IMG/VR virus record: IMGVR_UViG_3300034198_012786 | Location: 120,021 to 184,020 of that record | DNA from: a virus | Reading direction: 5' to 3' (one strand) | Length of the DNA: 64,000 nt | Shown here: positions 16,125 through 40,338 of the stretch, one piece after another | Layout: each line of letters begins with the position of its first letter | Position numbering within the stretch: the first letter of the stretch is position 1 | The notes under the pieces: generated by a model | Databases searched by the model: none | Seen by the model: the letters and a program-made list of their open reading frames with translations, nothing else | What the model was told of the DNA's origin: nothing | Position numbers and translations under genes: made by a program

Positions 16125-18422
16125 CTAAATCTTAACCTGTACTTCCTTAGATTCAAGCTTGCACTCAACCGAATTACCGTCTAGATTCAGCTGAATGGTA
16201 TTATCGTCAATGCTCGCCCACTCAGAAGGCCAAACCTGACCGACGACAATGGTAAATGTGTCAGCAGCGATCTTCCGAATGAAGCCGTTAGAACGAGACT
16301 TCGCCTGACGACCGCGCTCATTAAGGATAGCGATACGCTCCTCAAGCGGTGCAGTTCCGGTGGAGATCTTCTCGGCTTCGTCGAAGAAGGGCTTCATGAG
16401 ACTTCCAGGACCATTGAGTTTACCCTTAGCCATCTGTCCACGAAGGTCCTTAAGGCTTGGGATCGTCGAATACCCCTTTATAGAAGCCTTGAGTTCTTTG
16501 CCCATATAAAAGTCGGTCGATTCCGCGACCACTGACTTAGGATTAAAACCGAAGTCCGTGAAGCCGTTCTCTTTAAGCCAAGCAGCCCCCTCATCCCCAT
16601 AAAGAGCCACAAACCCTTCGCTCTTCTTCTCGGGTGATAGTTCTTTGCTAAATGAGTCGAATACCTTCTTTTCTGCCTGAGACTTCAGCAGTTCCCACTG
16701 GGTCTCGAAGAAGGTCCTGGCGCTGATCGACTTAACCATCTGACGGTTAATAACCGGCAACTTATTAAGGTGGATCTTGCTCGCACCATTCGGGTTGAAT
16801 TCGAATGCTTCCTTGGGCGCCTTTCCGGTCGACACTGCGTTAGCTAGCTTGGTAACTGTCCTGGGGGTAAGCTTTACAGGCAAAAGCGAAACGTTTACCA
16901 AACCGTCCTTAAGAATCGCATAATTCCGATAGATCGAAGTGGGGAACTGCTTCGGGATTTTTCCTTCGAGCGAAGTAGGAAGACGGTCTGAGACATCAAC
17001 CGTTCCTTCCTTACGCACCAATACCGAGATATTAGGACGATCTTCGTTATAAGTGAGGTTACTGATCGAGTATCCATCAGGTGATGGCTGCGATACGAAC
17101 TTGAGCGCGGGCTTCTTGCTGGCCGTAATAGATGCAATCTGAGCAGCTAGCTCTGCCACCTTCTTAGGGTCCTTGGTAGCAGTCATTTGATTCGTGAGAT
17201 CCTCTATCTGCTTCTGCTCGTCTGCGGTAAGCGATTCATCGGCATCGACTCGTCCGCGACCGATCTTTGTATACTTAAATTCGGGAGAGTCGAGAAGCAG
17301 CTTATTACCTTCATCATCTGCCAGAGCGTTAAGCACATCAAGAACGGTAAAAGCATCATCAGCGGGCACCTTGTTAGGATCATATCCTTCGACTAGTCTC
17401 TTGCTCTTATCAAAGGCTGCAGCCTTCGTCATGTCCATGAATTCGCTATATTTCTGCTTCCCGAAGCATCCACCAAAAGCATCAATGAATGTGACATCAC
17501 CTGACGTCTTGAGGAGCGGCAAAACGATGTCTGGCGCCATACGGACGCTGTAAAGCGAGATTGCAGCATAAAGCGCCGACACGGACGGGTCATTGCTCTG
17601 AACATCGATACTCTCGGACCCGGTAACGCTCTCGGCAACATACCACACGGCAGACGAGTCTTCCGGAATCTTCACGCTGCTACCATCCACACCGTAACTA
17701 ATGAGCTCACCATCAGAAAGAGCAAATGCAAAATCACGAATCGGCTTAAAGTCAAGCTTCACCTCGATCTTAGGCTTGCCCGAAATCTTCTTCTGAATAA
17801 CAGCATCAAAAACAGGGTCGAATTTATCGAAATCTTCAGCAAACACTAAAGCGCCACCGGCCGCCTCAGCCATCTTAGTCAGAGTCGGTCGATCCGCATA
17901 ATATCCATACTCGATAAACGTAGCGGACGCTAGTTTACCGGAAGATGATTCGACTGCCTTAATGATCTGATCCTTCGGCCATTGATTGTCCTGTCCGTCG
18001 CTCATAAACATCAGCGAGAAGACGCCATCACTATCCTTCTTCTGGATACGATCGACAAGAGCCGATACTTCCTCCATAGGCTCCTTAAAACCCGTAAGAC
18101 CCACGGGCTTGAGCCACCGGTCAATAGCAGAGTTAACATTCTTAAGATCTGTAAGAGACGAGACCGCCTCTGCTTCTAGGAGGGTTCCGAACTCTCCCTT
18201 GCCGCTGAACCAAATGATTGAAACGGTATCGGAATCCTTAAGCAGCTTTGGCAGCTTCTTCTTAAGCTGATCACGAACCTTAGGCAAGTCCCAGGTCATG
18301 CTACCTGAGCAGTCAATTACCGCAATATGATGAGTCTTTTGCTCGACTTTCTTCGGAGGTTCCTTGAATGCGAGCTCATGCTGTACCAAAGTAAGCTTGT
18401 CGTTGATTTTAAATGACTTCAC
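16125..18422 (-). CDS. Large VWA-domain protein
   Basis: The 765-residue protein has a von Willebrand A domain at about residues 30-215 with a metal-ion site DCSGSMT (DxSxS), a Thr in GLTGF and MFMSDGQDNQ. The remaining 550 residues are unassigned but well folded in appearance, with a coiled segment near the middle (DEQKQIEDLTNQM). VWA domains bind partners through a metal ion and often work with AAA+ ATPases. It is on the same strand as RuvB, SSB and RecA genes. Start is GTG 18422 with GGAGG upstream. Role unknown. Confidence 0.75.
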   Translation of the reverse strand: MKSFKINDKLTLVQHELAFKEPPKKVEQKTHHIAVIDCSGSMTWDLPKVRDQLKKKLPKLLKDSDTVSIIWFSGKGEFGTLLEAEAVSSLTDLKNVNSAIDRWLKPVGLTGFKEPMEEVSALVDRIQKKDSDGVFSLMFMSDGQDNQWPKDQIIKAVESSSGKLASATFIEYGYYADRPTLTKMAEAAGGALVFAEDFDKFDPVFDAVIQKKISGKPKIEVKLDFKPIRDFAFALSDGELISYGVDGSSVKIPEDSSAVWYVAESVTGSESIDVQSNDPSVSALYAAISLYSVRMAPDIVLPLLKTSGDVTFIDAFGGCFGKQKYSEFMDMTKAAAFDKSKRLVEGYDPNKVPADDAFTVLDVLNALADDEGNKLLLDSPEFKYTKIGRGRVDADESLTADEQKQIEDLTNQMTATKDPKKVAELAAQIASITASKKPALKFVSQPSPDGYSISNLTYNEDRPNISVLVRKEGTVDVSDRLPTSLEGKIPKQFPTSIYRNYAILKDGLVNVSLLPVKLTPRTVTKLANAVSTGKAPKEAFEFNPNGASKIHLNKLPVINRQMVKSISARTFFETQWELLKSQAEKKVFDSFSKELSPEKKSEGFVALYGDEGAAWLKENGFTDFGFNPKSVVAESTDFYMGKELKASIKGYSTIPSLKDLRGQMAKGKLNGPGSLMKPFFDEAEKISTGTAPLEERIAILNERGRQAKSRSNGFIRKIAADTFTIVVGQVWPSEWASIDDNTIQLNLDGNSVECKLESKEVQVKI

Positions 18423-22181: not shown

Positions 22182-22622
22182 TTACTCGAAATCATCATAC
22201 CCACCACGCTTACGACGGTCATTCTGGTTAAAGCGACGACCACGCGAGCGATCTGGAGGAGGTTCCGCAAACATTGGCGCGTCCTGGAAATGACCCTGAT
22301 CAACAGAGGGTCTGGGTCGCGGCCTGTGAGTCGACTCGCGGTGCATGGAAGCAGCAGGAGGAGCACCGGGAGCATTACGATCGCGAGCTTCGTTCACGAT
22401 CAGATCGCGTCCCATGAACATCACACCGTGAAATTCGCCTACGGCCCGGTTTGCCTCCTCATCGGAAGACATCGTGACGAAAGCGAAACCACGGCTACGA
22501 CCTGTTTCGCGATCCATCATGATACGGGCGTCCTTCACGGTTCCGACGCTCGAAAAATGTGACTTAAGTTCAGTTTCAGTAGCCGACCAGGAGAGATTGC
22601 CTACGAACAATTTGTTGCCCAT
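22182..22622 (-). CDS. RRM-domain RNA-binding protein
   Basis: The 146-residue protein has one RNA recognition motif with canonical RNP2 (KLFVGNLSW, residues 4-12) and RNP1 (RSRGFAFVTM). An Arg/Pro/Gly-rich tail (RGRRFNQNDRRKRGG) follows, like the glycine/arginine tails of cyanobacterial Rbp proteins. It binds single-stranded RNA. AGGA precedes ATG 22622. A longer frame to 22904 lacks start support. Single-RRM proteins are unusual in phages and could regulate phage mRNA, for instance at the hairpin just downstream. Confidence 0.9.
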   Translation of the reverse strand: MGNKLFVGNLSWSATETELKSHFSSVGTVKDARIMMDRETGRSRGFAFVTMSSDEEANRAVGEFHGVMFMGRDLIVNEARDRNAPGAPPAASMHRESTHRPRPRPSVDQGHFQDAPMFAEPPPDRSRGRRFNQNDRRKRGGYDDFE

Positions 22623-22951
22623 TTGATTCCTAGAAAGTTGCCAGTTAGGGGTTAGAGGGTTGGAGGGTAAGATAGTATGACAGTGAAATTTACTGTAGAT
22701 TATATGATGGTTTATCTCATGGTCTCGACTCCATAGAAGCATAATAAAACGCGAATTTTGGATCGATCTGCAAGCCGAAAAAGTGGCGCGGGAAGAGGCC
22801 AGCGCTGAATAAGCGACACAACACGACCGCGAAACCAACATCAATGGCTGGCCCATTTTTGGATGCCGTTGATGATCCCCAACGGCCCAGTCGTGACCTT
22901 CCACCGGTCTGGCGACTGCGCAGCGATCCCCTTAATTCCCATGGTGCAAGG
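22623..22951. other. Gap of 329 bp without a supported gene
   Basis: The stretch between the RRM gene and a small membrane-protein gene is locally GC-richer than its flanks. Frames on the minus strand (22717-22968 and the upstream part of 22182-22904) and one plus frame without a start codon are all open for 60-80 codons, but none has a ribosome binding site or recognisable sequence. It may hold a decayed small gene, an RNA or the promoter for the RRM gene. Confidence 0.4.
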
Positions 22952-24558: not shown

Positions 24559-24840
24559 ATGATAATAGTGTGTATGGTAATTTCGTTCGCCGTCGGGTTT
24601 GCTTTATCGAAAATTCGTAGACCCGTGACTAGAACCGAGTCGAAAAGTTGGGTCGAGCTTCCATCGGGGTGGTCAAAGACTATAGACCGTGAACACAACG
24701 CGTTTGCTATTCAAATATCAAAATCTGACGCTTATTGGTGGATAAGTCGAAACGGTAGGACCTGGATAGAAGGCCCTGCTAAGAGTCTTGACTTAGCCAA
24801 AAAAGAAATAGAAGTCGTCTTGTCTGAGTTTATGTCATAA
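24559..24840 (+). CDS. Small membrane-anchored protein
   Basis: The 93-residue protein has one N-terminal transmembrane helix (about residues 2-18), a basic stop-transfer stretch (KIRRPVTR) and a Trp-rich soluble domain (YWWISRNGRTWIEG). GGGGA precedes the ATG. It converges with the membrane-protein gene at 24835. Function unknown. Confidence 0.55.
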   Translation: MIIVCMVISFAVGFALSKIRRPVTRTESKSWVELPSGWSKTIDREHNAFAIQISKSDAYWWISRNGRTWIEGPAKSLDLAKKEIEVVLSEFMS

Positions 24841-25854
24841 AGCAGTCGATATCGAAACTAGCAAACCGACCTTCAATGACAGATCTAGCGTCAATTGTGG
24901 CGACAAGTATAAATCCTGTACGAAGGGTAAGTGCTGACCAATCCTATAGGATGCGGGGTTTAATGATATGACCGGAGATGAGTTTAAGAAGTCGTATCCG
25001 AGTCCAGCGCCGATGAAAGTGAAATCAGGCAGGAATTTGTCTGAACCGTAATTAGCAAAGTAAAATGCTAGACCAGCATTACCAGTAATTCCAAGGGTGG
25101 TGTGGATACCTCCCGATACCCCTAGATGAAGTCGACTCGCCCACCTAAACTTAGCTGGTTTCGGGGTCATGACCATTTCGGCCGTTGAAATCGGCAAGGT
25201 GACTTTATTATCTCCTTGTATGATCTCCATGTGCGAATATGCGATTTTTCTTCCATCATCATCCTCTGCAAATACCACGGATGATTTATAGCTTCGGGGG
25301 AACACTGATAGACTCCACGGATCCTCTTTCCAAGCCTTAAAAGTGACTTCCCCGAATGGGATATTTTGGTCCGTTACAGGCTCGTTAATATCCAACACCT
25401 GCTCCGAATTTTCGTACCTTCCGGGTGCACAAGCGGGAGCCGTAGGTGGTGGGATCTTTATATCCGAGCTTGAGCCTTGATTTGGAGGACAAACACACGA
25501 TCCGAAATTCGGCTGGGCGACATCCGTTCGAGGCTTAGAGCGGCTGCTTCGAACGTTGGTCGAGTTGGAACCAGACGTATTGGCGGTCGTAACGTTTATA
25601 CCAGTAACGACTGCTCCGTTGTCGGTGGCATCTGAACGAATTCGAGAAATATCGACGCCTGCATCCAAGGCCATCGAATCTATGTCGGCGCTAGTGCCTA
25701 CAGACGTGGAAGACCGAACTATCCCACCGCCAATGTCTTTTTGATCGATTACTTTGGTCAGTTTACTATTCGCATCTTGGAGCTGTTTATGTTGAATTCC
25801 GATTATCAACAGCATTAGACCAATGGTGAGGAGGAGCAGTTTGTTAGTTTTCAT
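24835..25854 (-). CDS. Membrane-anchored protein with barrel-like C-terminus, last gene of envelope operon
   Basis: The protein has 339 residues from ATG 25854, chosen because GGAGG lies six bases upstream. It has an N-terminal hydrophobic helix (LLLLTIGLMLLIIG), a Ser/Thr/Pro-rich low-complexity region (about residues 45-140, with CVCPP and PACAPG), then alternating beta segments towards the C-terminus (HLGVSGGIHTTLGITG, TFIGAGLGYDF) like an outer-membrane barrel. The start region can fold into a hairpin that hides the ribosome binding site. It follows the OmpA-like and coiled-coil genes. Envelope location inferred. Confidence 0.6.
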   Translation of the reverse strand: MKTNKLLLLTIGLMLLIIGIQHKQLQDANSKLTKVIDQKDIGGGIVRSSTSVGTSADIDSMALDAGVDISRIRSDATDNGAVVTGINVTTANTSGSNSTNVRSSRSKPRTDVAQPNFGSCVCPPNQGSSSDIKIPPPTAPACAPGRYENSEQVLDINEPVTDQNIPFGEVTFKAWKEDPWSLSVFPRSYKSSVVFAEDDDGRKIAYSHMEIIQGDNKVTLPISTAEMVMTPKPAKFRWASRLHLGVSGGIHTTLGITGNAGLAFYFANYGSDKFLPDFTFIGAGLGYDFLNSSPVISLNPASYRIGQHLPFVQDLYLSPQLTLDLSLKVGLLVSISTAL

Positions 25855-25873
25855 CTTATTCCTCCTCACCATT
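25822..25873 (-). promoter_or_regulatory. Hairpin pairing the ribosome binding site with signal-peptide codons
   Basis: Perfect 13-bp arms (aatggtgaggagg / cctcctcaccatt) are separated by 26 bases that contain the start codon of the gene at 25854. In the minus-strand mRNA the GGAGG pairs with the CTCCTC leucine codons of the hydrophobic leader. Initiation should therefore depend on opening this stem. Confidence 0.55.
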
Positions 25874-25883
25874 AACCGTCTGA

Positions 25884-26621
25884 CTACCCTAATATTTTCT
25901 TTAACGCCTTCACATTCTTATCGAGGGCTTTGATCGCTTTATCATGCTTTTCGAGTTTTTCCACTAGCTCTTCAGAGTCCATATCTCCTAAACTTAACGA
26001 AGAGGACCCTGATTTTTCCACTTTGCCAGATAGTGATTCGACTTGAGAAGCGAGAGCACCCACCTTAGCTTCAAGAGCGAGCCTTGATGCATTGCACTGT
26101 TGGTGCTGGTCTTCCTGTTTTTCGCTCTTCTTCTCTTCGATCTCGAGCTGTTTCATCTTGGCTTCGTGTTCTCTTTCGGCCTTTTCAGCCCGAGCTTTTA
26201 GCATCGACGGGCCAAATTTTATCGCAGCACCCACGACTGCTAGAATCGCTGCCCCGCCAATCATCAAAGCCGGACTGGCGTCTGACCCTGCCGGTATAAG
26301 AGATTTTACCTGACTTACAGCTTGGTCGACACCTACCGTAGCTACGGTTGCGGGGGCTTCAGAAACCTGGGTGTCTACTGATTTTACTGATTCGGTCTGG
26401 GCCATTGGAACTTCCTCCTGGTTTAAGGTAACTTCTTCGGTGGTCTTTATCTCCGTATGTTTTTTATTCTTCACAGAATCTCGCTCTCCTTCCATAGGTA
26501 TGATTACATTCTTAACAGCCTTAGGCACTCGACAGTTAGGATCTAAGTTAGCGATAGATTCGAATGGTATCGATCCATCCTTATTTAGCGTAATGTCGCA
26601 TACGGGCCGATTATCCTCCAT
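25884..26621 (-). CDS. Membrane protein with cytoplasmic or periplasmic coiled coil
   Basis: The 245-residue protein has a disordered acidic N-terminal part, a central hydrophobic helix at about residues 117-137 (LMIGGAAILAVVGAAI), then a highly charged coiled coil to the end (EKAEREHEAKMKQLEIEEKK). Its ATG overlaps the stop of the OmpA-like gene (TAATG). It may link the barrel proteins to another partner. No family recognised. Confidence 0.6.
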   Translation of the reverse strand: MEDNRPVCDITLNKDGSIPFESIANLDPNCRVPKAVKNVIIPMEGERDSVKNKKHTEIKTTEEVTLNQEEVPMAQTESVKSVDTQVSEAPATVATVGVDQAVSQVKSLIPAGSDASPALMIGGAAILAVVGAAIKFGPSMLKARAEKAEREHEAKMKQLEIEEKKSEKQEDQHQQCNASRLALEAKVGALASQVESLSGKVEKSGSSSLSLGDMDSEELVEKLEKHDKAIKALDKNVKALKKILG

Positions 26622-27754
26622 TATTCACCCCGGATTCTTATGATGTCGATTCTTATGTACGGATCACCCGAAAATTTAATCATTTTTCCGAGGCGTATCC
26701 TTTCTTTCTCGACACCGGAAGAAATCAAAAATTCCTTGACTTTTTTAATTCGGTTGTAGCCCTCATTCATACTCATCTTTCCACCGACGAAATTAATGCT
26801 CACTAACTCGATCTCGGGGTGACCTTTCAGAAAGTACTGCCATTTTTCGATGAGCTCAAATTGCTTTAACTCGGTTTTATCGAATACGACCTTCTTCTGT
26901 TCGACTGTAGGAAGCTTGATATCGTTAGAAACTACCGGTTTTATTTCAGACGGCGCTTCCGAAACGATCTCGGGTGAAGGATCTGGACTTAAAACCGGCA
27001 ACGGGCTTGCGCCTAGGTCGGGATCGCTGGTTACGTCAGGCTGGATTACGGGTGTGACTATCGCAGTCGAATCGATCGATTCTGGATCCGATTTTGGGTC
27101 TAATGGCAACACAACAACTGGGTGTGGCCGTTCAACGACCACGGCCGGGCTATCCACAGGATCGGGTGGTACAAGTCGAACCCCTAAAACGGAGTCGAAT
27201 CGAGGAATTCCGGGTCCGCTCTTTACAGCGAATGCAACTCCGGCGATAGCAGAAAATCTATTACCGAGTCGAAACACTGAATACGTTCCGATCTGGTGGC
27301 TTAAATCTGATTCGATCGAAAACCCCAACCAATCGAACAAGCTATACTTAACGCCTGACTTTAGGCGTAATCCACTAGTGCCGTAAGAAGAAGATAATGA
27401 AGCATCGAACTTATCGATTTTAAAACCGAGAGCGAGAATCGCGTTTAAAGACTGGCTCGAGTTGAAATAGCTATTATAGGAAATCGGAATATTCGTTACA
27501 GCCCGAACACTTGCAGATAGGAATTTGATTCGGAATTGAGCACCTGCGAACGCCTCTGGTTTTAAGATCTGAAATCCACCGATGCGCTCCGAGCCTAATC
27601 TCGTAATTAGTTCAGAGGTCAACCCCACAAACCAGTACTTCCCTGCGTAAGCGAAAGCAGCGCTCGAACTTAGTAGATTTGGGATCAAATTTAGCGATTC
27701 GCCCCGCTGCCCAGTCCATCTTAATAGATCGACCGAGAACAGCGGGGCAATCAA
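26621..27754 (-). CDS. OmpA-like outer-membrane protein
   Basis: This 377-residue frame has about 190 residues of alternating beta-strands like an outer-membrane barrel, a Pro/Asp/Val-rich linker (roughly 195-275) and a C-terminal OmpA-like domain (VVFDKTELKQF, NRIKKVKEFLISSGVEKERI). It begins at TTG 27754, overlapping the TGA of the TSP3 gene, and has no signal peptide of its own. A signal-peptide-like segment sits in the upstream frame just before the stop. This suggests a -1 frameshift or a broken gene. The OmpA domain is divergent. Confidence 0.65.
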   Translation of the reverse strand: MIAPLFSVDLLRWTGQRGESLNLIPNLLSSSAAFAYAGKYWFVGLTSELITRLGSERIGGFQILKPEAFAGAQFRIKFLSASVRAVTNIPISYNSYFNSSQSLNAILALGFKIDKFDASLSSSYGTSGLRLKSGVKYSLFDWLGFSIESDLSHQIGTYSVFRLGNRFSAIAGVAFAVKSGPGIPRFDSVLGVRLVPPDPVDSPAVVVERPHPVVVLPLDPKSDPESIDSTAIVTPVIQPDVTSDPDLGASPLPVLSPDPSPEIVSEAPSEIKPVVSNDIKLPTVEQKKVVFDKTELKQFELIEKWQYFLKGHPEIELVSINFVGGKMSMNEGYNRIKKVKEFLISSGVEKERIRLGKMIKFSGDPYIRIDIIRIRGE

Positions 27755-30111
27755 AAATGGGTGCCGTCCTTAAATTGACTGGAAGGCACAGTAACGAATT
27801 CCGATCCTATCTCCGGTGAAGTCAAAGATAGTTCTAATTCACGCGGAACGGAGACTTGGACACCTTGGTCTGCCGAAGCGACCGAAGAAACAAGCAACAA
27901 AGCAAGGAAAAAGTTCCGCTTGCGACGCATAAAGAGTGGGATAAAAGCTAAGGCATAAAAAGCACTGGATGATCGATCGTTCGGAGCATTAGACCCGAAC
28001 GTAGTCGACCCAGTTGATACGGGACCAGAGGAAGAACACCCACCTGAATAGATTCCCGGTGGGACTTGGCCAGGGTCCGTGGGACTACTACCTTGCTTTG
28101 CTTCTTCGGCATCTGAATACCCGTCACCATCAGTATCGACTACAAGCGGATTTGTCCCGATCTTCTCTTCCTCGATATTCGGAACGCCGTCGCCATCTGC
28201 GTCGGGGTCGCACATATCACCAATCCCGTCAGTGTCGGTATCAGTCTGGTCAGCGTTCGATAGCCCTGTGCAGTTATCATGATTGTCCGCTATCCCGTCG
28301 CCGTCAGCATCTACATCGCAAGCATCTCCAATTCCGTCTGAGTCTGTATCATTCTGACTAGCGTTTGTCACCCCAGGGCAGTTGTCGATACCATCGACAA
28401 CTGAATCTCCGTCCACATCCGGATCGCAGATGTCTCCTATTCCATCGAGATCTTGGTCAAACTGAGTTCCGTTCCGAAGCAAGGGGCAGTTGTCCGTTAG
28501 ATTCGATATTTCATCTCCGTCAACGTCGGAGTCACACTCATCGCCGATACCGTCTAGATCCATATCAGACTGTAGTGGGTTGTGTATGACATCACAGTTG
28601 TCTTCTGAATTTGAGATGCTGTCATTATCTTTATCTAAGTCGCATGAGTCTCCAAATGCATCATCGTCAATGTTTCGTTGATCGCCGTTGGATATGTTCG
28701 GACAGTTATCTAGATCATTTCCAAGCCCATCTCCATCAAGATCACTATCGCACATGTCACCGACTAAATCATGGTCCATGTCGGACTGATCAGCATTAGC
28801 GATTCTTGAGCAGTTGTCAACATCATCCGGTACCATGTCTCCGTCGTCATCGCTATCACAAGCATCTCCTTCAGAATCGTTATCTAGATTCGCCTGGCTA
28901 GGATTAGCCAGGCAAGGACAATTGTCCGCATCATCGTTAGCCCCATCACCATCATCGTCTAGGTCACATATGTCGCCTATTGAATCTCCGTCTAGATCTT
29001 CTTGCGCTACGTTATAATGCAGAGGACAATTATCAACTACGTCGCTTATGGAATCTCCATCATCATCACCATCACAAACATCACCGAAGAAATCATGGTC
29101 GGTGTTTAATTGGTCAAAGTTGCTGTAAAGCGGACAGTTGTCGATATTGTCAGCGATCTCGTCGCCGTCGTCATCATTGTCACATAGGTCGCCAATACCG
29201 TCTCTATCTAAATCAGCTTGGTTAGGGTTTGATATAGATGGGCAGTTATCGCTTCCGTCTAGCCACCCATCATCGTCTCGGTCGGCAATTCGGAAAAACG
29301 ACATCCCCTCAACGCGGTCAGATAGACCATCGTTGTCGGAGTCAGTGTCTAGAGCGTCTGGGATTCCGTCTTGATCGAAATCAGAAAAACAAGCGGGACG
29401 AAAATTAATGGCATCCAAGAAATTTCCACATGAAGATCCACAAGAGGAAGAGATGCTTGCAAATGCAAATCTGGTGGTGGTTTGGCCTGCAGGAATCTGA
29501 ACAACGCCGCTGTACCTAGTCCAGGTGCGGGCCGGAGTTATGCAGCGTCTCTGCTGGACTAGTGAGCCTCCTGGGGTCCCCAGCAAGAAGTCCATAGTGT
29601 CCGTACCCTGGCGTCCTGAATGGGCGAACGAATAAAGAAATCTGTTTCCCGGTGTGGTGGGCACGTCTTGGTATAGAGTTGAAACGTAATTCGCATTCAG
29701 TTCGACAAACACTCGCCCGTCTAAGGCGTTAAACCCACTGAAATTTCCGTTAGGCCACAGCTCGAAGGTGTGGTCCGGAGCTGTAGACTTCCATCCCGGC
29801 ATATTAGCTTCAGTAGGGAAAAATAAGTTTGTGCCGGAAAATGTTGGTAATTCAAAGCTTCCATTTACCAAAGAAACGACTGTAGTAGCGCCAAGGCTGC
29901 ACTCTGATAGATTGGGTATCCCGTCTCCATCCATATCATCATCTGATACGTCCCACATACCATCTGCATCAGAATCCCTAACCAGCGGTGGTAGTCCTGC
30001 TAAAACTTCGTCGGCGTCATCTAGACCATCCGAATCGGAGTCTAGTGCAGGACTAACCACCGGAGCCAAGAGGAGAAAAGAAATAGTTATACTAAAAATA
30101 TGTTTACGCAT
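27751..30111 (-). CDS. Secreted thrombospondin type-3 (Ca-binding) repeat protein
   Basis: The 786-residue protein has a signal peptide (residues 1-22, ending VSPALD), a short EF-hand-like start, a lectin/jelly-roll-like segment (about 75-235) and a long run of TSP3 repeats (DxDxDGIGDxCDxDxDGDxxxDxxDNCP) that bind calcium. A Gly/Ser/Cys stretch (YSGGCSSSG), a hydrophobic helix and MRRKR follow, like MYXO-CTERM sorting tails. The frame then continues for 54 residues that read as a new signal peptide and mature start. GAGGAG precedes ATG 30111. First gene of the envelope operon. Confidence 0.85.
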   Translation of the reverse strand: MRKHIFSITISFLLLAPVVSPALDSDSDGLDDADEVLAGLPPLVRDSDADGMWDVSDDDMDGDGIPNLSECSLGATTVVSLVNGSFELPTFSGTNLFFPTEANMPGWKSTAPDHTFELWPNGNFSGFNALDGRVFVELNANYVSTLYQDVPTTPGNRFLYSFAHSGRQGTDTMDFLLGTPGGSLVQQRRCITPARTWTRYSGVVQIPAGQTTTRFAFASISSSCGSSCGNFLDAINFRPACFSDFDQDGIPDALDTDSDNDGLSDRVEGMSFFRIADRDDDGWLDGSDNCPSISNPNQADLDRDGIGDLCDNDDDGDEIADNIDNCPLYSNFDQLNTDHDFFGDVCDGDDDGDSISDVVDNCPLHYNVAQEDLDGDSIGDICDLDDDGDGANDDADNCPCLANPSQANLDNDSEGDACDSDDDGDMVPDDVDNCSRIANADQSDMDHDLVGDMCDSDLDGDGLGNDLDNCPNISNGDQRNIDDDAFGDSCDLDKDNDSISNSEDNCDVIHNPLQSDMDLDGIGDECDSDVDGDEISNLTDNCPLLRNGTQFDQDLDGIGDICDPDVDGDSVVDGIDNCPGVTNASQNDTDSDGIGDACDVDADGDGIADNHDNCTGLSNADQTDTDTDGIGDMCDPDADGDGVPNIEEEKIGTNPLVVDTDGDGYSDAEEAKQGSSPTDPGQVPPGIYSGGCSSSGPVSTGSTTFGSNAPNDRSSSAFYALAFIPLFMRRKRNFFLALLLVSSVASADQGVQVSVPRELELSLTSPEIGSEFVTVPSSQFKDGTHF

Positions 30112-30128
30112 TTTTCGCTCCTCTTGGC
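30065..30128 (-). promoter_or_regulatory. Hairpin pairing the TSP3-gene ribosome binding site with leader codons
   Basis: Perfect 11-bp arms (gccaagaggag / ctcctcttggc) flank 42 bases that include the ATG at 30111. On the mRNA the GAGGAG ribosome binding site lies in the 5' arm and the leader's CTCCTCTTGGC leucine/alanine codons form the 3' arm. It mirrors the arrangement at 25822-25873. Confidence 0.5.
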
Positions 30129-34133: not shown

Positions 34134-34149
34134 ATCACATGATTCTAAT

Positions 34150-37100
34150 TTAGCCTGTCCAACCACCTAAACCGGCTACTTCGGTCGAGTAGAAGGTGCC
34201 TGCCCATGTAGTGGCTGTAGTGCCAGGACCAATTACGTTAACAATAACGCCACCAAGTGAGCTACTGCCAGTCACTGTCGGGTCGGTAAACCCACCATAT
34301 GACCCATAAGACATTCCGGTTAAACCATCGACGAAAACATTTCCGCTATCATTATAAGCTATGAAATCATAAGACCAGCCTTTGACTTCTCCAGGATTAC
34401 CGTTGCGAGCAGTGACGTCCAGACGAACTTTAGCGGCGAAAGCGTTTGGAATCTGTAGAATTCCGTAAGAGGTTGCTCCGAACACCGGCTGCAATGAAGT
34501 CATCGTGGTTTCGGTAACACCGTCAAATGTAATAGTTTTTACTGGCAAGATCGAAGTCTGCGCGGTTCCTCTGAGCGACACATTCGTTTGCGCAGATCCC
34601 GTGACGCTGCTAGAAGATAAGGCGAACACTCCCCAAGTGCCTCTATCGCTGGCCCCACGACCACCAGGTATCGAGGAAAACCAACCGGATACGGAGTTAT
34701 GGTATCCACCAGCAATTACTGAACCCCAGCTAGCCCCAGTCACGTAGTTCCTATTTCCCCCGAAGATAACGCTTTCTTGTCCGTCCTTTATGTGATTTAA
34801 AGTACCGGATCCGATCATCGACCTATAGGAGCCGTCTATAGTGTTATTGTTACCGCCAGCGATCACGCTATATGAAGTTGCAGTTACTGTATTGTTACCG
34901 CCAGAAAAAATGCCACTTTGATCAGCGCGTATCTTATTAAGCCAACCTCCGGCAATCACATTTAGTCCAGACGCCCCATAGGCTGAACCGTCGAATATTA
35001 CGTTATAAGCACCGCCTGCAATCGTAGAATAATCATCATATGTTAAGTTATTTAGACCGCCCACGACAGCCGAATGTTCATTGGTGACCTGGTTTAAGGA
35101 ACCGGCCCCTACGATCGAGTATTTTCCGGAAACGGTGTTATCATACCCGGCGACGATGGCTGATCCTGTTGCAGACACTTGATTGCTGAAACCCGACAGA
35201 ATACCGCTAAGTTCGGCTCCAGCTGCTATTGAATTCTGGTTACCACCAACAATGGATGAATAACTCGCATAAATGTTATTCTGTCGACCGCCTAACACGC
35301 CCACATATTCTGCATCATCGCCTGTCAAGTTATCACGACCACCAGCGACTACAGAGGCCACACCTCTAACAGAGTTTGATTGGCCGCCTCCGATAAAAGC
35401 ATAGTCCGCGTTCGTGAGCATCTGATTAAACTTCCCACCGACTATGGATGCGAAGTCTAAACTCTGTATGGAAACATTTTCTCCGGCGCCGATAAAATTA
35501 TAGACTCCGTTGGTGATAAAATTCAAATCACCAGCAACAATAGCCGATCCGGTTCCGCCAACTTGATTCCCGATCCCTGCAACAATAGTGTTTGCGGTTC
35601 CAGATACATCATTGCTGATGCCTGCACCGATAAAGCTAGACTCATCGTTAGCACTTGAGTTTGTAATAACGTTCTGTCTACCCGAAGCGATCGAAGAATT
35701 TAAATTCTGTGCAAGGTTATTAGTACCGGCAAGAATACCGGTAGCGGTAGAACCTGCTTCGTTAAAGGTTCCACCGACGATCACTGAGGCGGACCCGACC
35801 GATTCGTTATTCCAACCACCCAGTATTCCGGAGTAAATGGTGCGGGCGCTATTTCCATAACCTCCGGCTACCACTGAATTCGGCCCTGACGCTACGTTGT
35901 CTCGTCCTCCTAGAACAGACGAATTCTGGGCAGTCACTTCGTTGCTGTATCCGCCGCCTATGAATGAATTGCTTCCGGACGCCGTGTGGCCCTCGCCAGA
36001 AATGATGACGGAGTATAAACCTGTGGTCTCGTTGTTGATACCAGACAGGATAGCTGAGTAATCACCCGATGCAGTGTTGCCTGAGCCGTTTAATATGGTA
36101 GAATACTGACCGATGGCGGAATTAGCATAGCCAGATATCACAGCACTGTAAAGCGCACCGGCCCCATTGAATAAGCCATTAACGACCGTTGAACGAATGC
36201 CCTGTGCTATATTTTGTTGGCCGCCACCGATAAACGAACCGATGCCCGACGCCGTGTTTCCTTGACCGCCTAAGATCACCGAATTGGTGGCCGAGGTATC
36301 GACGGTGTTTTGATATCCACTTAACACCGCAGAATTCGTGGATTTCACCGCGTTAAAGCTTCCAGACAAAATAGCCGAGTTATTACCCGACACTTCGTTT
36401 CCGGTACCCGACAATACTGACGATTCTGTCGATGACACAACGTTGCTTTGACCAGCACCGATAAGCGAATTGGAGTTCTGAACCTGATTTAACTGACCCG
36501 CTCCAACGAATCCAGAAGCGCCTCCGACGTAGTTCTGTGAACCAGCCCCTATGAATGCGTTATCTGACGGGCTCTCGATCGTATTCTGCTGGCCACCGAC
36601 AATAACCGAATTTTCGCTCTCAATGTAGCTATCGCGGCCAGCAAAAATGCCAGACGCAGTTCCGTTGGGATTATTGCTAATACCTGCGCCAACTATCGAA
36701 GCAGTCCCGAAAGCTTCGTTTTCATAACCGGCAACCACCGCAGAATAAGCGGATCCGCTAGCATTGGTCGAACCAGCGCCGACAAATGAAGCGAAGTTGT
36801 AAGCTATATTGTCGGTTCCGCCTACAACAGCACTACTCTGCTGCTGTGCTTGATTTGATTGGCCTGAACCGATAAAGCTATACTGTCCGGACGCCGCATG
36901 ACTTGAACCGGCTCCAATGAAAGACTGAGCTCCAGAAGCCTGGTTATCATTACCAGCAACTATCGCGGCTGACTGATCTGATACGGTATTTCGCTGACCT
37001 GCTCCGATTAATGAAGCTGTTCCGTTTACTGTGTTTTGCTGTCCTGCGCCCACGAATGATAGATCGGCGTTGGCATTGCTCGCTTGACCCGCGATAACAG

Positions 37101-38424
37101 CAGACGCACGACCACCTACGAAATTCGATTCACCGCCAGCCACGGACCAGTGGGAGTTAACACTGTTGTACATACCACTTATTACAGAAGAAGCAGTCCC
37201 ACCCACAAAGTTATTCTTACCGTTAAGAATCGTTGCGAACTTTGCTCCAGAAGTGTTATTTTCGCCATTTAGAACCGTTGCATATTGATCACTCACACGA
37301 TGCGAAACGCCGTTGAGGATTACACCATATCCTTCAGAAGCTGTATGGCCAGATCCAGCACCCACTAAATGAGAATCGCCAACCACCATCACATTTTGGC
37401 CATTAAGAACTATGGAACTCGAGGCGGTTACCGAGTTAAGCTGACCAAGAAGTACAGCCGATAAGTCGCCCCATACATTGTTTTCGGCACCGATTAGAAC
37501 GCCAGTTCCGGTTCCTGACACAATGTTGTTACGACCATTACCAATGATCGCGTAATAACCGCCGTTTACTTGGTTATTCTCGCCGCTGATGATGACACTG
37601 TGGTCGCCTGTGATGCGCTGAGACTCGCCACCAAGTATGGAGTTGGAATCACCCGAGATAAAGGCTTGAGGTGAAGATAGTACTGAGTTAGTGAAACCAG
37701 AAATCGTCGCACCATAAGCGACGGCAGCGAAATTCCCGGTACCCTGTACGACGCTATTCACGCCTAAAAGAACTGAGTTTGCATCACCATTCAAGAAAGC
37801 TGAATTACCGACTGCTAGGAAGTTCGACGCACCGACCACTCCCGAATCGATACTGAAAAGTATACCTGAACCAGTACCCTGGACTTTATTATATGCACCG
37901 CTAAGTATGTAACTGTAATCACCGGAAGCTACGTGGTTTGCATTGCCTCGTAGACGCTGGAAGTCTAAAGCGTAAGCGCCACGATCATTACCACCAGCGA
38001 CAGTCCCATCGGGTATTGAAGCTAATAGAGCGCCTGAACCGGCCACTAGAGCGACGTTAACATCTGATGGCAAAGCGCTATCTGGTTTTAGCGCTATAGT
38101 ATTATAAGCCACGCTTCGGTCTTCATCGAAGTATACTAAAGCTCCGGTTCCTCCACCGCCTGCGGGACCTGTAGCACCAGCGGGACCGACCGGACCCGTA
38201 GCACCATCCGCACCAGCGGGTCCCGTAGCACCAGCAGGACCGGTATCTCCAGATCCGCCGCCGCCAGCGAAATAACTCAGTGCGTTCCACGCAGTAGTAC
38301 CATTACCGATTTTAATTTTGCCAGTATCGGTCTCATACCCCATCTCTCCCTGAGCCAATACAGGATTGATGGAGGACCAGCTAGCAGCAGTACCGCGACG
38401 AAGTTGAATTTGCGAAGTAGACAT
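34150..38424 (-). CDS. Long tail fibre with collagen segment and YadA-head-like repeats
   Basis: The 1424-residue protein starts with the phage fibre N-domain seen in Mtd and hyaluronidase-type fibres (IQLRRGTAASWSSINPVLAQ, GKIKIGNGTTAWNAL). A short collagen-like stretch (GPAGATGPAGADG) follows. From about residue 120 to 1280 there are dozens of 14-16-residue repeats of the form NSVVAGGYGN, NSFIGGGYSN, typical of left-handed beta-rolls in trimeric adhesin heads. The last 150 residues form a different domain without an S74 chaperone. It is probably the host-binding fibre shaft and tip. AGGT precedes the ATG. Confidence 0.88.
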   Translation of the reverse strand: MSTSQIQLRRGTAASWSSINPVLAQGEMGYETDTGKIKIGNGTTAWNALSYFAGGGGSGDTGPAGATGPAGADGATGPVGPAGATGPAGGGGTGALVYFDEDRSVAYNTIALKPDSALPSDVNVALVAGSGALLASIPDGTVAGGNDRGAYALDFQRLRGNANHVASGDYSYILSGAYNKVQGTGSGILFSIDSGVVGASNFLAVGNSAFLNGDANSVLLGVNSVVQGTGNFAAVAYGATISGFTNSVLSSPQAFISGDSNSILGGESQRITGDHSVIISGENNQVNGGYYAIIGNGRNNIVSGTGTGVLIGAENNVWGDLSAVLLGQLNSVTASSSIVLNGQNVMVVGDSHLVGAGSGHTASEGYGVILNGVSHRVSDQYATVLNGENNTSGAKFATILNGKNNFVGGTASSVISGMYNSVNSHWSVAGGESNFVGGRASAVIAGQASNANADLSFVGAGQQNTVNGTASLIGAGQRNTVSDQSAAIVAGNDNQASGAQSFIGAGSSHAASGQYSFIGSGQSNQAQQQSSAVVGGTDNIAYNFASFVGAGSTNASGSAYSAVVAGYENEAFGTASIVGAGISNNPNGTASGIFAGRDSYIESENSVIVGGQQNTIESPSDNAFIGAGSQNYVGGASGFVGAGQLNQVQNSNSLIGAGQSNVVSSTESSVLSGTGNEVSGNNSAILSGSFNAVKSTNSAVLSGYQNTVDTSATNSVILGGQGNTASGIGSFIGGGQQNIAQGIRSTVVNGLFNGAGALYSAVISGYANSAIGQYSTILNGSGNTASGDYSAILSGINNETTGLYSVIISGEGHTASGSNSFIGGGYSNEVTAQNSSVLGGRDNVASGPNSVVAGGYGNSARTIYSGILGGWNNESVGSASVIVGGTFNEAGSTATGILAGTNNLAQNLNSSIASGRQNVITNSSANDESSFIGAGISNDVSGTANTIVAGIGNQVGGTGSAIVAGDLNFITNGVYNFIGAGENVSIQSLDFASIVGGKFNQMLTNADYAFIGGGQSNSVRGVASVVAGGRDNLTGDDAEYVGVLGGRQNNIYASYSSIVGGNQNSIAAGAELSGILSGFSNQVSATGSAIVAGYDNTVSGKYSIVGAGSLNQVTNEHSAVVGGLNNLTYDDYSTIAGGAYNVIFDGSAYGASGLNVIAGGWLNKIRADQSGIFSGGNNTVTATSYSVIAGGNNNTIDGSYRSMIGSGTLNHIKDGQESVIFGGNRNYVTGASWGSVIAGGYHNSVSGWFSSIPGGRGASDRGTWGVFALSSSSVTGSAQTNVSLRGTAQTSILPVKTITFDGVTETTMTSLQPVFGATSYGILQIPNAFAAKVRLDVTARNGNPGEVKGWSYDFIAYNDSGNVFVDGLTGMSYGSYGGFTDPTVTGSSSLGGVIVNVIGPGTTATTWAGTFYSTEVAGLGGWTG

Positions 38425-38438
38425 TATTTACACCTAGG

Positions 38439-39086
38439 TTAAGGCGAGCCGCCGTCGATTTCAAGCTCGACAAAGAAATTATTTATTTCCGCCAATAAAA
38501 GTATTTCGGGACCGCCACCATCTACTGCGGTCACAGTCACCAACCCACTACCAGCGGGTCCAGTCGGGCCTACAAGACCTGCAGATCCAGTCGGCCCAAC
38601 TAATCCAGGAGCTCCGGTTGGCCCTACCACGCTTAGACCAGCTGGACCAGTAGGACCCACTAGTCCTGGCGACCCGGAGAACCCGGTTGGACCCCTTGGT
38701 CCCGTATTGCCTTCGATTCCGGGGGGACCTACAGGCCCGATGAAGCCAGGGGGACCGACCGGACCACGAGGTCCCTGAACACCAACAGGTCCAGGAGGAC
38801 CTAGGAATTGGTTTGTTTCGGGAACTGTCCCGATTTTCTGAAACCGAACTGCGAAGTTATAAATGTAGCCTAAGTTAGATATCGACGGTGCTGCAGACGA
38901 CACCTGAGTAAGTTGATATGTTTCCGGAGTAATAGATAACTGATTATATATTCGAGTAATTATCGACGGATTCGAAAGAGCCGATATAGGATCAAGAATT
39001 GCCACATCAGAAGTCAGCACTACTGTGGCGGTAATTATATTTTTCGAGTTACTCGCTAATTTCTGTACGCCAACGTTTACAGCCAT
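38439..39086 (-). CDS. Collagen-like fibre protein
   Basis: The protein has about 215 residues from ATG 39086, which has GAGG upstream (the frame could extend to TTG 39116). It has an N-terminal domain of about 100 residues ([27 protein letters not shown]), roughly 24 Gly-X-Y triplets rich in GPTGP and GPVGP, then a short C-terminal strand. The N-domain looks paralogous to that of the next gene, so both may dock on the same baseplate or neck site. Collagen triplets imply a trimeric rod. Confidence 0.78.
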
Positions 39087-39096
39087 AGTAGCCTCA

Positions 39097-40338
39097 CTAA
39101 GGGTAGTATATTCCAAACGGACTCACGTTGGCAAAGATAGACGTCGAATCTGCAGCCACTCCGACAGTTTGACTTATAACGACGCCGCTTGGAGCGGTAG
39201 CCGTAGCAGCCCCGGTCGAACCCAAATAGTATACTAAACCCTGATTCAGTCCTGCCAAGTTATACACAGGTCCCACGTTTGTTAGATATACGTCAGTGGG
39301 TCCGACAACGACTGCAAATCCAGCAGCAGGAAGACGAGATGCGTCATTGTTATCCGCAACCACCGCTCCTGTAGAGGTAATTGCAACAAGCTGACCGACC
39401 AGAATAGGCTCGGCAAGCGGCACCTTTAACTGAATATTCGCATTGGAACCCGTAGGACCTTGAGGACCAGTAGGCCCTACGAGACCGTGGCTTCCAGTAG
39501 GACCTACGATGCCATTCTGGCCCGCTGGACCGGTTGGACCAGTGTTGCCTATTGAGCCCGTGGAACCGACAGGTCCTTGGGGTCCGGTATCACCGAATCC
39601 TGAATCGCCCTTTGGACCTGTCGGTCCGGATGGTCCTGTAGGACCCGAAGCACCTGTCGGACCGTTTGTCGGACCCGTGGGACCGACAGGACCGGTGGGT
39701 CCGGGAGGACCACCGAATGGGCCGGTGGGGCCAGTGGCACCTTCTATACCAGACGAGCCTGTAGGACCGGTCTCGCCGAAGCCTGTAGGCCCCTGAATAC
39801 CAGTGTCGCCCGTTAATCCAGTCGGACCTGTCGGACCGACATGACCCATACTTCCCGTAGGGCCGACTAGACCTTCTAAACCCATCGGTCCGGTGGGGCC
39901 CACAAATCCTATTGGACCTGTTGGACCTACTAGACCTAAGGCACCTGTAGGTCCGGTACTTCCTGTAGCACCAGTGCTTCCAACTAACCCTATGGACCCC
40001 ATGGGTCCGGTAGGTCCTAATGCTCCGGTAGGTCCTCGAGCTCCAACATCTCCTTTTGCGCCTCGAAATGGATCAGCTAAATTACTGGTTCGAGCGGCAA
40101 ATCTGGCAGTAAAGCTGTAACTTACTTGCGTTGGACTCGGGCGTGTAGCTTTCTGGAAGACCAAGTATAGAAGTTGAAATTGATTTCTAGCTAGACCAAG
40201 ATCTGCATAGACTTTAGTTAAATTCTCAAAAATCGGAGTAGAAGGCTCATCAAGAGGGGCATCTGATAGAACATTAATCACGGCATCCGTGAATTCGACG
40301 GTGCCGCCTGTTCTATATGCATTTACTTGAGTAGCCAC
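39097..40338 (-). CDS. Collagen-like fibre protein with C-terminal head
   Basis: The 413-residue protein starts at GTG 40338 with GGACGG upstream. It has an N-terminal domain of about 90 residues ([24 protein letters not shown]), about 65 Gly-X-Y triplets dominated by GPTGP, and a C-terminal beta domain of about 115 residues ([16 protein letters not shown]) ending FGIYYP. The abundance of Pro and Thr at X/Y positions makes it a candidate for hydroxylation or glycosylation. It is co-oriented with the other two fibre genes. Confidence 0.8.

Follow-up and report, generated by a model that had tools for sequence, protein, structure and literature searches.

How does a large phage translate and export a protein of predicted outer-membrane type when its reading frame opens on the stop codon of the preceding gene and begins without a signal peptide? 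This question is raised by two overlapping genes, ORF1 and ORF2, and we conclude that programmed -1 ribosomal frameshifting is the best explanation of their junction, a candidate reading to which we assign a probability of about 0.57. The window, by which we mean the whole 64,000-nt stretch of DNA analysed, is G000:C1:120021-184020 of a 184,020-base IMG/VR virus record. The same 64,000 bases recur with zero differences, including the T-run at the junction, in an overlapping record of 307,777 bases (IMGVR_UViG_3300032233_002382). Because tail fibres, an endolysin and a lytic transglycosylase adjoin the pair within the window, the source of the sequence is a large phage and not a bacterium. The genes from 30111 to 24835 are close-packed on a single strand and read as one set, which opens with ORF1:

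30118-30122, minus strand: AGGAG, the Shine-Dalgarno (SD) sequence of ORF1.
30111-27751, minus strand: ORF1, a TSP3-repeat surface protein of 786 aa, with an ATG start and a TGA stop at 27753-27751.
28072-29385, minus strand: TSP3 repeat array in 12 stretches (Pfam TSP_3, 6.7e-89).
27916-28044, minus strand: CTERM-like sorting tail inside ORF1, with a GGC motif, a short hydrophobic helix and MRRKR.
27871-27930, minus strand: internal signal-peptide-like stretch, MRRKRNFFLALLLVSSVASA followed by DQ, sharing RRKR with the CTERM-like tail and preceded by an ATG without SD.

The Pfam repeat array places ORF1 among TSP3 proteins, and its layout runs from an N-terminal signal peptide and an N-domain of 160 residues through the 12 TSP3 repeats to a tail of Cys motif, helix and RRKR, the signal-peptide-like stretch and 39 further residues. 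It scores 493 bits against the NCBIfam MtsC model (cut-off 350), a score dominated by the TSP3 repeats. Within the tail, GGC lies at residues 690-692, the hydrophobic helix at 716-727 and MRRKR at 728-732; the signal-peptide-like stretch (NFFLALLLVSSVASA, then DQ) extends to residue 747 and is followed by residues 748-786. This arrangement resembles that of MYXO-CTERM/myxosortase substrates, including the TSP3 family MtsC (NF047638), in which TSP3 repeats, a Cys motif, a hydrophobic helix and an Arg-rich cluster occur in the same order (PMC11980579). Unlike those substrates, however, ORF1 is phage-encoded and its tail is internal, with 54 residues, including a second helix, after RRKR. The MYXO-CTERM model TIGR03901 has no match to ORF1 at E up to 1, and no NCBIfam CTERM model passes its cut-off, the CGP and Synergist CTERM matches falling below theirs. 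The internal position of the tail, which is C-terminal in known examples, counts against the frameshift reading.

The ORF1 frame is coding past RRKR, by 14-16 nats of codon usage over the other frames. The preliminary description of this DNA was correct that the TSP3 frame, here on the minus strand, runs on through the CTERM-like tail and the signal-peptide-like stretch to the TGA at 27753-27751. As no SD was found upstream of the internal ATG at 27930, before RRKR, the signal-peptide-like stretch would be reached solely by ribosomes from the TSP3 start. An independent start at this ATG was rejected for the same lack of an SD, and it would still need a frameshift. A 39% relative of the N-domain occurs on another viral contig (L029:7249-9654), where PEP-CTERM-like tails (VPAP...RRR) close both this relative and two proteins encoded beside it; sorting tails thus occur in other phage-like contigs.

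The second gene overlaps the end of the first by 4 nt (TTGA) in the -1 frame of the minus strand:

26621-27754, minus strand: ORF2, 377 aa with a TTG start, comprising a predicted outer-membrane-type N-terminal part, a Pro-rich linker and an OmpA/Pal-like C-terminal domain.

The earlier observation that an OmpA-like frame starts at a TTG overlapping the stop and carries no signal peptide holds for this 377-aa frame; no ATG or GTG lies near the start, leaving TTG as the only one. Codon usage marks ORF2 as clearly coding from about 27700 on. Its description as an OmpA-like barrel stands in part. A model of the C-terminal 95 aa finds Pal, OmpA, OprF and PorE as its top Foldseek matches (best E 7.6e-4), but at low confidence (pLDDT 60.5, TM about 0.5), and Pfam OmpA (PF00691) has no match in ORF2. 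The likeness to Pal/OmpA-type peptidoglycan-associated domains is therefore a tentative one of predicted fold only. The N-terminal part looks by eye like outer-membrane strands, and the putative 8-strand barrel is a matter of inference, since the full-length model, made without an alignment, is unusable (pLDDT 35).

The absence of a signal peptide and of any start other than TTG in ORF2, whereas the preceding frame ends in a coding signal-peptide-like stretch, argues for a frame change that would join the two. The junction reads ACC CAT TTT TGA TT and contains the following elements:

27767-27771, minus strand: AAGGA, an SD-like element, its AGGA 10 nt before the second base of U_UUU.
27754-27757, minus strand: slippery tetramer U_UUU (CAT TTT TGA), within the T5 run at 27757-27753.
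27749-27753, minus strand: 5-nt spacer TGATT, which includes the ORF1 stop.
27701-27748, minus strand: very stable predicted RNA hairpin, a probable -1 frameshift stimulator (-36.3 kcal/mol, z -7.0).

A TAA at 27772-27770 closes the -1 frame upstream, so that a change of frame is possible only within six codons, and the T-run is the sole slippery motif in this overlap (TAA 27772 to TGA 27751). A -1 slip on the T-run had been proposed before, with no mention of the hairpin or the SD-like element. Both are present here and lend that proposal strong support: the 10-nt AGGA gap lies within the 6-17 nt before the second motif base reported for stimulatory SDs (PMC4066793), and the structure starts 5 nt after U_UUU, within the distance of about 5-9 nt at which a stimulator is expected, with a stability above chance. 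Ranked by downstream structure, the site is 2nd among the 3,428 Z_ZZN-type tetramers of the window and 1st among those with an SD-like element. Readthrough of the TGA was rejected, as frame 0 stops nine codons on and never enters ORF2, and no known RNA family has a credible Rfam match at the junction.

The hairpin spans 48 nt (27748-27701), with arms GCCCCGCUG...CAGCGGGGC and an inner stem, and reaches -38.4 kcal/mol (z -5.7) when folded with its flanks. It is the second most stable among 31,976 segments of 52 nt on both strands, the first being an intergenic palindrome. None of 20,000 synonymous recodings drawn with the phage's own codon usage reached the observed -37.1 kcal/mol (mean -15.5, sd 4.0, best -34.9). 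The 56 nt past the ORF1 stop fold at -37.1 kcal/mol, compared with -3.5 to -16 at other tight junctions in the window (one exception at -32.9); downstream of the other 4-nt -1 junctions values are -3.5 to -13 kcal/mol, and none has a comparable hairpin. Codon usage across the hairpin region (27760-27670) favours the third frame by 3-4 nats, a bias seen in 4-6 of 792 other segments (<1%), and this also counts against frameshifting into ORF2. Selection for the stem may explain the bias, which may equally warn that the first 25 codons of ORF2 are not ordinary coding sequence. A +1 slip at UUU_UGA would lead into the third frame, which stays open for some 50 codons beyond the slip site (27760-27613, minus strand) and whose codon usage over the hairpin is better than that of ORF2; the SD distance fits a -1 slip better.

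These elements can be set against measured systems. Sharma et al. measured all Z_ZZN tetramers in E. coli (PMC4066793), and U_UU.U was one of six that rose at least four-fold over background with the IS3 pseudoknot. The six span 0.26-5.6% even with that pseudoknot (PMC4066793), and such weak shifting is a point against the frameshift reading. IS1 and IS3 elements use U_UU.[U,C], and the IS3 construct has a 5-nt spacer (PMC4066793). The phage junction shares with IS3/IS1-family signals the U_UUU tetramer class, the 5-nt spacer, a downstream structure, an SD-like element in the stimulatory range and a -1 overlap of the reading frames towards the 3' end of the first. It differs in having a predicted hairpin rather than a pseudoknot and a zero-frame stop as the very next codon; its products would be envelope proteins, not a transposase, and its slippage is predicted from sequence. 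A slip with U_UUU in the A site is the better description, as it sets the hairpin at the 5-nt distance of IS3, and it amends the earlier proposal; a stop codon already in the A site would leave a distance of only 2 nt. So short a distance is possible, for PMC5009743 cites a fungal U_UUU_UCC site whose pseudoknot lies at 2 nt. We infer that slippage during UUU decoding or translocation fits better than slippage with the stop codon in the A site.

Under programmed frameshifting, translation would begin at the TSP3 ATG, and for the majority of ribosomes it would end at the TGA (27753-27751) with release of the TSP3 protein. A smaller share, delayed by the hairpin and aided by the upstream AAGGA, would slip from UUU to the overlapping UUU and continue into ORF2. 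Their product would carry TSP3, the CTERM-like helix, RRKR, the signal-peptide-like helix and ORF2. The two helices may pair as a hairpin in the membrane, and cleavage after VASA by signal peptidase I may free an outer-membrane-type OmpA-like protein, in low and fixed proportion to the TSP3 protein. The released protein would probably act by altering the surface of the infected cell.

Other readings of the junction must be weighed against programmed frameshifting. Ribosomes that end at the TGA might open the hairpin and restart on the overlapping TTG, yielding two separate proteins. Such termination-reinitiation would suit a close-packed same-strand gene set (30111-24835) in a phage where 4-nt ATGA/TTGA overlaps are common, and AAGGA lies 12 nt before the TTG. 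This SD spacing is long, however, and a -36 kcal/mol hairpin from ORF2 position +7, of a kind that the other 4-nt junctions lack, should block initiation. The product would also lack any signal peptide despite its envelope-protein look, and the signal-peptide-like tail of ORF1 would be left unexplained, so that we regard reinitiation as unlikely. Still less probable is a one-base deletion in the T-run, whether a real mutation or an error common to both records, from a T6 that would give a single TSP3-OmpA open frame. One added T joins the frames exactly and homopolymers are indel-prone, but T5 is short, and the hairpin, the 5-nt spacing and the SD-like element would all be coincidences. Both records carry T5, but as they may share a sample, reads or assembly (64 kb without a difference), their agreement lends limited support against an assembly error. 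Transcriptional slippage was rejected because T5 is a short run and RNA polymerase would not yet have reached the hairpin.

The hairpin might instead be an end-of-gene RNA element of the TSP3 gene, a terminator or 3' stabilizer unrelated to frameshifting. Strong hairpins do follow other gene ends in this phage (for example at 34144, 22117, 548 and 62852), which tells against the frameshift reading, and the poor codon usage of ORF2 over the hairpin agrees with an end-of-gene role. Those at the other gene ends, however, stand outside coding sequence and are near-perfect palindromes, whereas the junction hairpin lies inside ORF2 and has an internal mismatch and bulges. No T-tract follows it and the terminator scan makes no call, on which grounds an intrinsic terminator was rejected. 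Additionally, ORF2 would be left without a route to expression or export, and we consider an end-of-gene element improbable, the least likely of these readings. The near-perfect hairpins directly after gene ends measure 12-19 bp (34144-34093, 22168-22117, 548-497 and 62852-62801) and mostly lack a clear T-tract.

Comparison with related contigs suggests that the two genes arrived together. Three contigs (L110, L111 and L112) encode a related lytic transglycosylase (69-76%) in the order tail fibre, transglycosylase, a gene of 105-128 aa and a homologue of the gene at 25884-26621 (36-44%), and neither the TSP3 gene nor ORF2 is among these kept neighbours. As the pair is absent from relatives in which its neighbours are kept, ORF1 and ORF2 look like one insertion. 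Both ORFs were likewise absent from the examined records of phages sharing the VWA-type gene at 16125-18422. Searches of phages, viral contigs, GTDB contigs and 284 genomes from a single phylum (that of G012, a delta-proteobacterial MAG) returned no homologue of either ORF2 or the joined protein, the bacterial searches having no positive control and so not proving absence. The searched collections thus yield no homologue of the pair in which conservation of the slip site or hairpin could be seen, which weighs against the frameshift reading.

Known phage frameshifts mostly concern tail-assembly chaperones, capsid extensions and mobile elements. The proposed frameshift would resemble the G/GT tail-assembly-chaperone and T7 gene 10 frameshifts in that a phage gene pair is involved and few ribosomes would make the C-terminal extension. 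Unlike those, it concerns neither a tail chaperone nor a capsid protein, and the extension would bring an internal signal peptide together with a domain like that of membrane proteins. The order of parts (TSP3, CTERM helix, signal peptide, barrel, OmpA-like domain) would make the product a polyprotein with an internal signal peptide. We offer, as a possible but rather doubtful extension, that ribosomes on the common path make an anchored TSP3 adhesin and those on the rarer path extend it by an internal signal peptide and an OmpA-like protein, which signal peptidase frees, so that the two surface proteins would stand in a fixed ratio on the infected cell; a single RRKR would both end the sorting tail and start the internal signal peptide. 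If true, recoding would here be put to an unusual use, with a frameshift determining, by way of an internal signal peptide, how much outer-membrane-type protein is made relative to an adhesin, and a large phage would be remodelling its host surface with adhesin-like proteins. The tetramer, SD-like element, 5-nt spacer and very strong hairpin form a compact signal that is directly testable in E. coli.

Several neighbouring genes are also of note. Downstream of ORF2, 24835-26621 (minus strand) encodes two membrane/coiled-coil proteins; related phages keep the gene of the first (25884-26621, minus strand) next to their transglycosylase, and the second has its only match in the identical record. 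Tail-fibre genes at 34150-40338 (minus strand) encode an Mtd N-terminal domain, ice-binding-like beta-roll repeats and collagen-like stretches. A phage gene at 22182-22904 (minus strand) carries a bacterial-type RRM RNA-binding domain (NF058537, 91.8 bits, just below the cut-off).
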